A stretch of 64,000 nt of DNA, from positions 62,001 to 126,000 of the forward strand of contig NZ_OCNH01000003.1 in NCBI RefSeq assembly GCF_900230225.1, read 5' to 3'. The position numbers and the translations under genes are program-made. The notes under the pieces are model-generated. The model was not told the DNA's origin. It was given only the letters and a program-made list of their open reading frames with translations, and ran no database searches. Of the stretch, positions 468 through 37,941 are shown one piece after another. Numbering within the stretch: the first letter of the stretch is position 1; each line of letters begins with the position of its first letter. This DNA is from Spirosoma fluviale (GTDB taxonomy: Bacteria; Bacteroidota; Bacteroidia; Cytophagales; Spirosomataceae).

Positions 468-567
468 ATGAGGAGTTAGGAGTTAGAAGCGAGGAGTTAG
501 GAGGGCTTACGCATGTTGTCCTGCCGGATGGCTCCTCACTCCTCGCTACTAACTCCTCGCTCCTCAT
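468..567. repeat. Intergenic palindromic element, family A copy 1
   Basis: About 100 bp with complementary ends (ATGAGGAG at 468, CTCCTCAT at 567). Both arms are built from variations of the word GAGGAGTTAG. The centre (GAGGGCTTACGCATGTTG, then GCCGGATGGCTCC) matches two more copies at 36782-36872 and 37055-37167. It fills the gap between two convergent genes; the TGA stop of purQ (564-566) is inside the right arm. Confidence 0.85.
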
Positions 568-1250
568 ACCAAAACTGCCTTCAATATCTGCTCTAAAATA
601 ATCCGTCCGTCGGTATTGCCGAGAACGGGGTCGGCGGCTCGTTCGGGGTGGGGCATCATGCCGAAAACGTTCTTGTTCTTGTTGGCTACGCCCGCAATAT
701 TTTCAAGGCTTCCATTGGCATTAGACGCTTCGGTAACGATACCGTTTTCGTCGCAATACCGGAATAGCACCTGGTTGTTATCGTTCAACGACTTCAAGGT
801 ATCGGCGTCGGCAAAATACCGGCCATCACCGTGCGCAATGGGTATTTTATACGCAGGCTTTTCCAGACCCGCCGTCAGCAGAGCGTCGATCGACTCGGGT
901 TTCAGATAAATGTTCTTGCAAACGTATTTCTGACTGCTGTTCTGCAGCAGAACGCCCGGTACCAGTCGGGCTTCGGCCAGAATCTGGAAACCGTTGCAGA
1001 TACCCATCAGGTAGCCGCCCCGGTTGGCGTGGGCAATCACCTCGTTCATGATCGGCGAAAAACGCGCTATGGCACCCGTCCGGAGATAGTCGCCATAGGA
1101 GAAACCGCCCGGCAGAATAATGAAATCGCAGCCTTGCAGATCATGATCTTTATGCCAGAGTTTTACGACTTCCTGGTCCATCAGTTCCAGTGCATCGACT
1201 GCGTCCTGATCGCAGTTGGAACCGGGAAAAACAACAACGCCAAATTTCAT
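564..1250 (-). CDS. purQ: Phosphoribosylformylglycinamidine synthase subunit PurQ
   Basis: Glutamine amidotransferase subunit of FGAM synthase, which supplies ammonia for the fourth step of de novo purine synthesis together with PurL and PurS (not in this window). The 228-residue length is normal for stand-alone PurQ. Visible motifs are the N-terminal VVFPGSNCD, the oxyanion region PGGFSYGDYLR, the nucleophile elbow GICNGFQIL with the catalytic cysteine, and MMPHPER with the catalytic histidine near the C-terminus. The start is the ATG at 1250; a good -7 promoter motif lies 32-39 bp upstream. It runs toward the Old Yellow Enzyme gene, and its stop codon falls in the palindrome between them. 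Confidence 0.97.
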   Translation of the reverse strand: MKFGVVVFPGSNCDQDAVDALELMDQEVVKLWHKDHDLQGCDFIILPGGFSYGDYLRTGAIARFSPIMNEVIAHANRGGYLMGICNGFQILAEARLVPGVLLQNSSQKYVCKNIYLKPESIDALLTAGLEKPAYKIPIAHGDGRYFADADTLKSLNDNNQVLFRYCDENGIVTEASNANGSLENIAGVANKNKNVFGMMPHPERAADPVLGNTDGRIILEQILKAVLV

Positions 1251-5315: not shown

Positions 5316-5326
5316 GGTTGTTGGCG

Positions 5327-5398
5327 CAAACAGGCTCCGGCTGTTTGATTGATAGACAAATTTAACTTCTGTCATAACAAACAGCCGGAGCCTGTTTG
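5327..5398. repeat. Perfect 21-bp inverted repeat
   Basis: Arms 5327-5347 and 5378-5398 are perfect reverse complements (core AACAGGCTCCGGCTGTTT) with a 30-nt loop. It lies in the gap between the thioesterase stop (5410) and the DUF1338 start (5315), both on the minus strand. There is no T-run on either side, so it is not a standard intrinsic terminator. Confidence 0.85.
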
Positions 5399-5409
5399 GG
5401 CCTTAATTG

Positions 5410-6159: not shown

Positions 6160-6507
6160 GCTGCAAAGAACGACAGAACGCGGATTGGTAGGATTAAACG
6201 GAGGCAAATATTAGCATGTAATTGGCTCGGCTGTAGGAACAATACCGGGCCTTTCGTTTAGACTTAGTTTTTTTTGTATTGTACCGGACCGCATCCTGCT
6301 GTCCAGCCGTCAGGCTAATTCTTTCAACAATATTGCATGCCATTTTAGCCTGACGGCTGGACAGCAGGATGCGGTCCGGTACATTAATCAATAAACCTAG
6401 TTTACAGGGTCTTCAGGAAAAATAAAAATACCGGCTTTTCTGCTTTCTTTTGCCGGTAGTCGGCCAACTTAATCAATCAAATTGCTGATAACGAACACAT
6501 TTCTTCT
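6160..6507. other. Divergent intergenic region holding a long perfect hairpin
   Basis: 348 bp between the thioesterase (minus) and TRIC-like (plus) start codons. The main content is the 39-bp perfect inverted repeat described separately. The rest is AT-rich and must contain two divergent promoters, but no clear TAnnTTTG motif stands out. Confidence 0.6.
6280..6383. repeat. Perfect 39-bp inverted repeat
   Basis: Arms 6280-6318 and 6345-6383 are perfect reverse complements over 39 bases, with a 26-nt AT-rich loop. The arm starts TGTACCGGACCGCATCC and ends CCGTCAGGCTAA. It lies between two divergent genes, so it is not placed as a terminator for either. Confidence 0.95.
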
Positions 6508-27565: not shown

Positions 27566-27673
27566 GTAATGCCGACCGTCCCGGTCGGGCGAGTCACGCT
27601 TTATTGTTGGATATAGTTTGGGATTATACTCAACGAACTAAGTGAATCGCCCGACCGGGACGGTCGGCATTAC
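27566..27673. repeat. Nested palindrome between convergent genes, family B copies 2 and 3
   Basis: Arms 27566-27592 and 27647-27673 are perfect reverse complements for 27 bp (GTAATGCCGACCGTCCCGG onward), followed by four more paired bases after a mismatch; loop about 54 nt. Each arm also contains its own small hairpin CCGACC-N5-GGTCGG (27572-27588 and 27651-27667). The trxA stop codon (27673-27675) touches the outer end. Confidence 0.9.
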
Positions 27674-35913: not shown

Positions 35914-36768
35914 ATGCAGGAAAAACCGCTTACATCAATCTCTGGTTATGTGTTGTTGCTTGTTGCCGTAGGCTGCCTGGTAGCGGCTGCCGGTTTAGGT
36001 ATTGCCCTGAAGACTGTGGTGATTCCGGTCTTGTTAGTGATACTGGCTATTATTCTGTTCATGGGAATAACCGTGATTAATCCAAACGAGGCAGCGGTGT
36101 GTACCTTCTTCGGCGATTATGTCGGGACGATGAGACAGGGCGGACTGCGGTGGGTTAACCCCCTGTATAGCAAGACTAAAATAAGTTTGCGTGCCCGTAA
36201 CCTGAACGGACAAACGCTGAAGGTCAACGATAAAATGGGCAACCCCGTCGAGATTGCCGCTGTTGTTGTCTGGCAGGTAAAAGACACCGCCAGAGCCCTC
36301 TTCGACGTAGATAATTACGTAAATTTCGTACAGATACAGTCCGAAGCCGCCGTTCGGAAGTTAGCGAACTCGTATGCATATGACCACATGGAGGATGAAA
36401 CGTCATCGGTAACGCTACGGGATAGTACCGGCCAGATCAACCTGTTTCTGGAACAGGAACTGAACGAACGGCTCGAACGAGCGGGTGTCGACATTATCGA
36501 AGCTCGCGTTAGCCACCTGGCCTATTCGTCTGAAATTGCCGGTGCTATGTTACAGCGGCAGCAGGCATCGGCCATGATTGCCGCTCGTCGCCTTATTGTG
36601 GAAGGGGCCGTGGGTATGGTGGAGATGGCATTGGAGCGACTGGAAAAAAATGGCGTGATCTCTCTTGATGAAGAACGCAAAGCGGCTATGGTAAGCAACC
36701 TGCTGGTTGTACTCTGTGGCGAAAAGTCAGTTAGCCCGGTCGTTAACGCGGGGACTCTTTATAATTAA
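35914..36768 (+). CDS. SPFH/Band 7 domain membrane protein
   Basis: A 284-residue prohibitin/stomatin-like protein. Two N-terminal hydrophobic segments ([20 protein letters not shown] and [16 protein letters not shown]) anchor it; the SPFH domain follows with [29 protein letters not shown] and [20 protein letters not shown]; the C-terminal part is a coiled-coil-like helix ([20 protein letters not shown]). SPFH proteins form membrane scaffolds or protease regulators. In many Bacteroidota this gene is followed, as here, by a very small Arc-type protein. Between them lies palindromic element copy 2. Confidence 0.9.
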
Positions 36769-36781
36769 AGTAGTCTTCTTT

Positions 36782-36872
36782 GAGGAGTTAGGAGCGAGAA
36801 GTGAGGAGGGCTGACGCAGGTTATGCCGCCGGATGGCTCCTAACTCCTCGCTCCTAACTCCTAACTTCTAAA
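36782..36872. repeat. Intergenic palindromic element, family A copy 2
   Basis: Left arm GAGGAGTTAGGAGCGAGAAG (36782 on) pairs with the right arm ending CTCCTAACTTCT near 36870. The core GGGCTGACGCAGG then TTATGCCGCCGGATGGCTCC is almost identical to copy 3 on the opposite strand and similar to copy 1. It lies between the SPFH stop and the Arc-type start. Confidence 0.9.
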
Positions 36873-36877
36873 AAAAC

Positions 36878-37072
36878 ATGGCTACTGAAAAGAAAGCATT
36901 TATCTTACGCATTCAACCCGAAACGTTGAAGGAGATGGAGCGGTGGGCACAGGAGGAGTTTCGGAGTGTGAATGGGCAAATTGAATTTTTGCTCAACGAT
37001 GCCCTGCGCAAGCGAAAAAAACGAACCCCCAAACCGGAGGAAGGGGAAGAGGGTAGTATTAGGAGCGAGTAG
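36878..37072 (+). CDS. Small Arc-family DNA-binding protein
   Basis: A 64-residue ribbon-helix-helix protein: KKAFILRIQPETLKEMERWA then FRSVNGQIEFLLNDAL, the pattern of Arc/MetJ-like proteins that follow SPFH genes in Bacteroidota. The C-terminal tail is basic then acidic (RKRKKRTPKPEEGEE). The last residues GSIRSE are encoded by the edge of palindromic element copy 3, which also supplies the TAG stop, so the original gene probably ended a few codons differently. It may control its own operon. Confidence 0.82.
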   Translation: MATEKKAFILRIQPETLKEMERWAQEEFRSVNGQIEFLLNDALRKRKKRTPKPEEGEEGSIRSE

Positions 37073-37167
37073 CGAGGAGTTAGGAGCCATCCGGCGGCAT
37101 AACCTGCCGGTCCGGTCAGACCCCTCGAGTCAGCCCTCCTCACTTCTCGCTCCTAACTCCTAATACT
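37055..37167. repeat. Intergenic palindromic element, family A copy 3
   Basis: Same element as copy 2 but inverted: its minus strand reads GCGAGAAGTGAGGAGGGCTG and ends CCGCCGGATGGCTCC, with a 22-nt insertion in the middle. Outer ends AGTATTAGGAG and CTCCTAATACT are inverted repeats. It covers the stop codons of both flanking convergent genes (37070-37072 and 37153-37155). Confidence 0.92.
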
Positions 37168-37941
37168 GCCTCCCCTACTTAATACTGCCTCACCAATCAG
37201 CCGGATGCCGTTTAGGGTTAGGGAGGGGACTATATCGCTGAATACATCGTTCAGGGATGTGATTTGCCCGGATAATCCGCCGGTGGCTACGGCAATGCAA
37301 TCTCCGTTCAGTTCGCTCTGGATACGGCTGACCAATGAGCGAACCAGTCCTTCGTAGCCCAACACTACGCCCGCCTGAATGGCGTGAGTTGTACTGGTGC
37401 CAAGTGCCGAAGCAGGCACCTCAATGGGCACTTCGGGCAGTTGTGCCGTGTTGGCGAACAACGACCGAATGGCGGTTTTTAAACCTGGGGCAATTGCCAC
37501 TCCCAGCAGTTTGCCGGTTCCGGATACCGTAGTGAATGTTAAGGCCGTTCCGAAATCGACCACAACACAGGTGCGCTGGTAGCGGGTATACGCAGCCAGC
37601 GCATTGGCAACTAAATCGGAGCCGATCTCGTGGGGGCGTAGCACCTCAATGGGCAAATGTGGGTAAATATCGGGCCCTACAACTACGGGAGCAAACCCAA
37701 ATAACTCTGTCAGCATAGCCCGCATGGTAGGCGTGAGGGCCGGTACAACACTGCTCAAAACAGTCGTTTCAACACTACTCAAGGGTAGTCCCGCTTCCAG
37801 TAACCAGAGCCGCAACCGACGTTCGTAGGATTCAGCCGACTCATCATGCCGGGCGGGTGTCCGCCAGATGTGCTGCCAGCTGGTTGCATTATAAAATCCG
37901 AAAACGGCGTCGGTATTGCCAATATCAACGATAATCTGCAC
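37153..37941 (-). CDS. coaX: Type III pantothenate kinase
   Basis: A 262-residue ASKHA-fold kinase making 4'-phosphopantothenate, first step of coenzyme A synthesis. Motifs are IIVDIGNTDAVFGFYN (phosphate 1), the substrate loop around GPDIYPHLPIEV, and VVDFGTALTFTTVSGTG (phosphate 2 with the aspartate). Late GVVLGYEGLVRSLVSRI and ATGGLSGQI complete it. The start is GTG 37941. The last residues (GGSIRS) and the stop lie in palindromic element copy 3; the preceding 20 bases also repeat at 37181-37193. Function should be unaffected because the catalytic core ends well before. Confidence 0.93.
   Translation of the reverse strand: MQIIVDIGNTDAVFGFYNATSWQHIWRTPARHDESAESYERRLRLWLLEAGLPLSSVETTVLSSVVPALTPTMRAMLTELFGFAPVVVGPDIYPHLPIEVLRPHEIGSDLVANALAAYTRYQRTCVVVDFGTALTFTTVSGTGKLLGVAIAPGLKTAIRSLFANTAQLPEVPIEVPASALGTSTTHAIQAGVVLGYEGLVRSLVSRIQSELNGDCIAVATGGLSGQITSLNDVFSDIVPSLTLNGIRLIGEAVLSRGGSIRS

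Follow-up and report, generated by a model that had tools for sequence, protein, structure and literature searches.

The three long palindromes of the window (the whole 64,000-nt stretch of Spirosoma fluviale DNA analysed, contig NZ_OCNH01000003.1, positions 62,001 to 126,000) are gene-less members of a hairpin family whose copies are scattered over the intergenic gaps of the home genome. Its ancestor appears to be a larger hairpin with a small gene of the S23 family, known chiefly from inserts in rRNA genes, and the arrangement resembles that of REP sequences and RAYT genes, with a four-helix S23 protein in the place of the transposase. The palindromes and the genes beside them are the following (the names purQ, coaX, and Arc-type were given by eye or taken from the preliminary description of this DNA):

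467 to 568, no strand assigned: copy 1, a heptad-arm palindrome with 37-nt arms and a 28-nt middle.
564 to 1250, minus strand: purQ-like ORF, named by eye; the hairpin site at its 3′ end was followed across 30 Spirosoma genomes.
36783 to 36862, plus strand: copy 2, a heptad-arm palindrome with 26-nt ungapped arms and the consensus core.
36878 to 37072, plus strand: 64-aa ORF, the preliminary description's Arc-type gene, with its final residues SIRSE and stop codon read from copy 3.
37052 to 37170, minus strand: copy 3, a heptad-arm palindrome in the opposite orientation to copy 2, its core halves separated by an insert.
37153 to 37941, minus strand: coaX-like ORF, named by eye, with its final residues SIRS and stop codon read from copy 3.

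The preliminary description had reported three palindromes with a shared core, lying next to stop codons, and they were located where it had put them. As RNA of either strand, they fold far better than shuffled sequences (−49.9 to −61.4 kcal/mol, z −5.96 to −9.33, equalled by 0 of 200 shuffles). The range first given for copy 2 (36782–36872) adds one more heptad at the right. The core, GGGCTGACGCAGG...TTATGCCGCCGGATGGCTCC, is exact in copy 2 and occurs as the variant GGGCTTACGCATG...CCTGCCGGATGGCTCC in copy 1, and its halves are split in copy 3 by an insert, in agreement with the claim that this copy is inverted and interrupted. All three elements had been said to adjoin stop codons, with the purQ, Arc-type, and coaX stops inside the edges, and two of the elements do contain stops: the purQ stop lies in copy 1, whose other flank is a plus-strand gene ending at 462, and copy 3 contains the stops of both convergent neighbours, the 64-aa ORF (37072) and the coaX-like ORF (37153). 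The codons next to copy 2, by contrast, are both outside it: a stop (ending at 36768) 14 nt off on one side and a start codon (36878) 15 nt off at the opposite side. The window has 17 instances of the heptad pair pattern where 0.87 would be expected, a count reached by no shuffle, and an Rfam scan of the window gave zero matches at the gathering score.

A search of the home genome, as had been recommended, revealed a family far larger than three. BLAST with a 91-nt query found 110 matches at E ≤ 1 in the 7.8-Mb genome, which were merged by eye into about 40 places, 40 of the 75 first-look candidates having been scored; among the matches listed, the heptad pattern search gives more places than BLAST. 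After other-strand repeats of one place had been skipped by hand, 50 palindromic copies were resolved from 53 fetched loci, five of which yielded none. Their arms are strings of 7-nt words, in which GGAG precedes TTA, CGA, or TGA, small variants aside (TT 123, CG 94, TG 80, and TC 2 in the arms of the 50 copies). Several cores recur, as judged by reading (GGGCTGACGC...GCGTCAGCCC; TTGCTGACGC...GCGTCAGCAA; ...GCCGCCGGATGGCTCC; and a CTGACCGCACCGGCGGACCGGC module), and the octamer GCTGACGC or its complement is present exactly in 33 of the 50. Mirroring between the arms is partial at the level of words (74 of 139 words in the 50 home copies, a fraction of 0.53 where chance gives 0.34), and an arm is matched best by its own partner in only 17 copies. 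Palindromes can also be nested, with heptad arms outside and a GGGCATTTGCCCGTGCC-type palindrome inside (the L192/L193 region, G000:C10:192998-193192, and block 110057-110192 of G042).

The gene neighbourhoods, called with a simple codon-based gene caller written for this analysis, place 45 of the 50 copies outside called ORFs. Five copies (L041, L052, L057, L064, and L065) lie within called ORFs, so that in-frame translation of some of them is possible, or the caller may have read through the copies. Tabulation of the distance to the nearest stop codon bears out the earlier view of REP/MITE-like sequences dispersed at gene 3′ ends: the neighbouring stop lies at a median distance of 2 nt (n = 55), is within 24 nt in 53 of 55 cases, and reaches into the copy in 21, and start codons lie at a median of 19 nt (n = 35). 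Once the copy is subtracted, the intergenic gap has a median of 19 nt, vs. 104 nt for all gene pairs (p = 7e-11). The genes flanking 45 copies are same-direction in 31 cases, convergent in 12, and divergent in 2, against 622, 126, and 127 among 875 background pairs. Stop codons are built into the words, as TAG or TGA in one direction and as TAA in the opposite one; since the word length of 7 is no multiple of 3, a run of TTA words puts a stop into every frame.

At one locus of the home genome (L049), two heptad arms lie about 500 nt apart with an ORF between them. This gene-bearing copy, outside the window at about 117.7–118.3 kb of contig C13, holds in its loop a gene of PF05635/TIGR02436 (S23, the 23S-rRNA intervening-sequence protein), the only ORF listed between the arms. 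It has the family arms and the core half-site GGAGCCATCCGGCGG, and the orthologous elements of two other genomes (G048 and G021) and the fragment in G004 have the other half-site, GCTGACGC, within the 5′ arm. The element is located between an ABC-ATPase-like and a permease-like gene (names by eye), not in an rRNA gene, and the closest solved structure to its 119-aa product by sequence is 2gsc (XCC0516). From this locus, and before the genus-wide counts, it was predicted that PF05635 and PF13366 (GxxExxY) genes sit in hairpins. In the home genome, PF05635 is represented by three genes, whose flanking inverted repeats score 21, 16, and 21 and use different words each time. Across the genus, 71 of 108 PF05635 matches were examined, the 37 weaker ones being left out, and 54 of the 71 have flanking inverted repeats of at least 14, the corresponding counts being 7 of 520 for control genes, 2 of 85 for small genes, and 16 of 568 for cross-paired left and right flanks of different loci; 17 loci are without a strong repeat. 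Counted per chromosomal place, S23 lies in a hairpin loop at 18 of 22, again with differing words. At the level of the order, the proportion is 16 of the 28 best-scoring loci vs. 12 of 224 cross pairs, 2 of 30 loci having been dropped for cut flanks. Similarly, 27 of 30 PF13366 loci, and 3 of 5 more, lie in inverted repeats (35 of 80 matches). Short words (CACAGAGAT, GACAGGATT, ACGGATT) make up the inverted repeats of the PF13366 loci, which comprise L282, L405, and L406 of the home genome and the 30 genus loci L275–L304; in the home genome, palindromes that use words of this kind but hold no gene lie near by.

The arm words of S23 loci vary by place (GGAGTTA, AATGATG, GTTTGTAG, AGTTGTAA, GGGAGGA, ATGTATGATAT, AATGTATAATG, AGTCGTA, and others, grouped by eye). 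S23 loci mostly cluster by chromosomal place and seem to be inherited in place. Protein distance correlates with arm words in a Mantel test (r = 0.54, reached by 0 of 2000 permutations) that comprises only 16 loci, one per flank cluster, after omission of 8 of 72 S23 rows (7 with a stop, 1 duplicate). The protein is conserved, with dN/dS of 0.02, 0.05, and 0.10 in three pairs with unsaturated dS, although two of the dS values exceed 1. A role of the core octamer as a general signal is not supported: it is found at 5 of 71 S23 loci, where the rate of 3.0% in random windows would give about 2, and in 3 of 101 long palindromes from 1.2 Mb of three genomes.

The words also follow S23 across the genus. 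Among 21 genomes compared at the site, seven have the GGAG-type S23 element between the same two genes as an insert of 475–544 nt; G004 has a fragment, G001 and G019 have 3′ remnants, and G023 has perhaps an arm remnant. The site is empty in G039 and G016, with only 14 nt, is occupied by other hairpins in G014, G041, G010, and G002, and has neither S23 nor a hairpin, or is ambiguous, in G011, G043, G018, and G007. Exact heptad triples, counted in 36 Spirosoma genomes, number 150, 89, 60, 41, 31, 18, and 4 in the seven genomes with an intact GGAG-type S23, whereas the 29 others have 20 (G004), 7, 3, 2, 2, 1, 1, and 1, with 0 in 21 (Mann-Whitney p = 6e-6, with no correction for kinship). Separate branches of a purQ tree show the association repeatedly, for example with 41 hits in G048 and 0 in its sister G043. 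Copy number tracks S23 only loosely, as G024 has an intact S23 and 4 hits, G004 a fragment and 20, and G014 no visible S23 and 7. A second vocabulary, AGTCGTA (AGTCRTARAAGTCRTA), has 75 hits in G013 and one each in three of the 35 other genomes; an intact S23 gene with AGTCGTA words (L328) is present in G013, and one of the three single-hit genomes has an S23 fragment beside the hit. Thirteen places in G013, chosen for the closeness of their hits on both strands, all gave a palindrome. The apex GCTGACGCGAAAGCAACA...GCGTCAGC is common to some G013 copies and some home copies; cores thus pass between word families, for which the S23 model does not account.

The preliminary description had set presence or absence at orthologous sites against point-by-point divergence, and the outcome is divided. 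The copies are not confined to the window, yet the closest genomes share the family sites, with arms rewritten and the palindrome retained, and no clean empty family site was found among 23 syntenic comparisons in the three closest genomes. Heptads are present in 21 of these, and the two without them represent one site with a decayed copy; nine further family comparisons lacked synteny. As these genomes offer no clean empty site, the comparison gives no sign of a recent jump, and the family is an old one within this clade. Empty or differently filled family sites occur in more distant species. In the window, two palindromes of other families, at 5323–5402 (25-nt arms) and 6280–6383 (perfect 39-nt arms), are clean cases of presence and absence, as both close relatives have empty sites there (8–12 nt and 50–68 nt, respectively); the sequence of the latter recurs in G042 (B block 358354). 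Other families vary likewise between G042 and G046, which are about 90% identical: 39 syntenic palindromes of G042 correspond in G046 to the same palindrome in 14 cases, another palindrome in 12, an empty site in 9, and none of these in 4. Ten orthologous palindromes of various families in this pair, counted at 75% identity or more with lower pairs left out, show nine mirrored pair changes against 0.21 expected, and five one-sided changes. Five of the nine are transversions and are therefore bridged by no G-U intermediate; template switching in replication is a route described for such changes (PMC8794818, in the part cited here). In G042, the two arms of the copy behind purQ mirror each other in a block of 14 nt.

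The 3′ site of purQ has a palindrome (score at least 13) in 25 of 30 Spirosoma genomes, vs. 77 of 250 convergent 3′ ends, and these palindromes form 18 groups, no two of which have a 9-mer in common. Unrelated families thus replace one another behind purQ, by targeting or by selection for a hairpin. Insertion of elements into the loops of older hairpins was also considered: the nested families and, among the matches listed, a G042 palindrome with only its outer arms in G046 are suggestive, but central deletion explains these cases equally well.

Two other readings of the hairpins can be weighed against these observations. A RAYT or TnpA REP encoded elsewhere had been proposed as the partner. 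A family of the classical REP/REPIN kind, moved by a home-genome RAYT (Y1 transposase), would fit the REP-like architecture and placement, the eight Y1_Tnp (RAYT-like) matches above the cut-off, and the presence of the family's core octamer beside one of them (L035). However, none of the eight loci, each of about 3.3 kb, contains the heptads, and several bear palindromes of their own, such as GACCGTCCCGGTC beside L037 and CACCGACAGCAAGATGCTGTCGG beside L038, with flanking inverted repeats of at least 14 at five of the eight by the method used for S23 loci. A RAYT is therefore a very improbable partner, and the partner found instead is PF05635/S23. Because these loci have their own palindromes and inverted repeats, classic REP-like families coexist in the home genome and act as a positive control for the method. 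The GACCGTCCCGGTCGG-family palindrome at 27566–27673 of the window is probably the REP of the L037 gene, as the same sequence flanks that gene. The flanks of the RAYT-like gene at L035 (1340–1420, 1960–2200) hold a near-perfect inverted repeat of 57 nt and tandem units of the AGTGCGGGGCTGACGC type, and these units include the core octamer, by chance or kinship. The other reading holds that the hairpins are maintained where genes meet, as 3′-end structures of the RNA or as terminators, with their spread a secondary matter. This agrees with the enrichment of copies in convergent gaps (12 of 45 vs. 126 of 875 pairs), their depletion in divergent ones (2 of 45 vs. 127 of 875), and the succession of unrelated palindromes behind purQ. 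On the contrary, 31 of the 45 copies lie between same-direction genes, and the cores common to unrelated sites require copying. G-U pairs are not preferred to A-C mismatches on the transcribed strand (23 vs. 40 in 56 de novo palindromes, 23 vs. 28 in 31 family copies, in partly overlapping sets, the de novo finder counting G-U as a mismatch), and a U-run, with at least six T in the next 10 nt, follows the hairpin at only 1 of 55 gene 3′ sides, which rules against canonical intrinsic termination. Selection on the RNA or canonical termination is consequently not the better reading, and we regard it as improbable; the earlier suggestion that the elements are RNA-structured is borne out as regards the strong stems.

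The explanation that we consider somewhat favoured is that the gene-less palindromes belong with a full, S23-bearing hairpin element, and that this element or its product lets short copies made of the same words fill intergenic gaps. The full element would carry the PF05635 gene, encoding a four-helix-bundle protein, in its loop and would mostly stay at one inherited place, while gene-less copies would derive from it and populate the gaps, as is held for RAYT and REPs. The S23 protein may recognise its own words and act in trans. Copying would take place at the DNA level, template switching between the arms would restore their complementarity, and landing behind a gene or in its last codons would be tolerated because the arms close every reading frame. 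Alternatively, S23 may be a passenger: the hairpins would be spread by another function of the host or of a transposon, one copy having trapped or made room for S23, and words and S23 would co-occur only through descent of both from one ancestral element. To our knowledge, S23 has no known catalytic residues, and its loci look inherited in place, both of which would suit a passenger, as would the 20 heptad hits retained by G004 beside an S23 fragment. However, many kinds of cargo would then be expected, yet PF05635 recurs in the loop at 18 of 22 chromosomal locations with different words, and S23 stays conserved; moreover, the genomes with S23 remnants (G001, G019, and perhaps G023) have 1, 0, and 0 hits. 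A passenger role for S23 thus seems unlikely.

The proposed S23 arrangement has both similarities to and differences from known systems. REPs and REPINs are dispersed extragenic palindromes, with a single-copy RAYT gene flanked by inverted repeats and an abundance that follows this gene (PMC2817692, PMC3116915, in the passages cited). The present family similarly has dispersed extragenic palindromes (50 copies, 45 outside called ORFs), a gene present once and bracketed by inverted copies of the repeat, and a repeat abundance that follows the partner gene, here S23. It differs in that this gene is PF05635 and not a Y1 transposase, in that RAYT-like loci have no heptads, and in its copies of about 80–130 nt with heptad-string arms. 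REP palindromes are described, in the part of PMC3733652 cited here, as having a GTAG or CGTC tag at their foot, and CGTC is present inside the family's core octamer GCGTCAGC. Intervening sequences (IVSs) of 23S rRNA have an S23 ORF in a hairpin loop with terminal inverted repeats, and gene-less forms exist, according to the relevant passages of PMC4990558 and PMC11270868, which also cite a proposal of IVS mobility by Ralph and McClelland (1993). The founder element and 54 of the 71 genus loci have this organisation; unlike IVSs, the present family lies between protein genes, its arms are strings of words, and there are dozens of gene-less dispersed copies. As in MITEs, the arms and core half-sites are common to a gene-bearing relative, here the S23 element, but this relative has no transposase, its sole listed ORF between the arms being PF05635. 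The BrickBuilt MITE of Porphyromonas gingivalis (23-nt direct repeats, small inverted ends, 19 copies) is likewise an intergenic, MITE-like element of Bacteroidota built of tandem units with inverted ends; the passages cited from its description (PMC4596501) state no S23 link such as that found here. The TAACTGA heptamers, some of them in Bacteroidetes, are intergenic direct repeats that, like the present words, close all three frames and often abut starts or overlap stops; as portrayed in the cited portion of PMC4679880, they are almost never inverted and have neither a palindrome nor a partner gene, unlike the present family. The home S23 protein also matches the model of Avd of diversity-generating retroelements, weakly, at 32.1 bits, under the curated cut-off of 80. 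In the open-access literature, which has preprints and most subscription journals outside its scope, we found no paper stating a link between S23 and hairpin repeats.

A wider generalisation, put forward tentatively and with more doubt than confidence, is that S23 (PF05635) and GxxExxY (PF13366) are the partners of a wide and so far undescribed class of Bacteroidota hairpin elements that lack a transposase. Each lineage would lie in the loop of its own words, mostly of 7–9 nt, read these words, and spread gene-less copies behind stop codons, and rRNA IVSs would be those elements whose landing place was an rRNA helix. Both S23/IVP and GxxExxY are protein families of wide occurrence for which we know of no test of function. 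Whether IVSs move at all is a long-standing question, as the cited part of PMC4990558 puts it. If S23 and GxxExxY genes are partners of word-specific hairpins, the binding of each protein to its own words, and its need for them, becomes directly testable. The arrangement would be a second one like that of REP and RAYT, built on a protein unlike a transposase, and it would account for part of the palindromes between Spirosoma genes.
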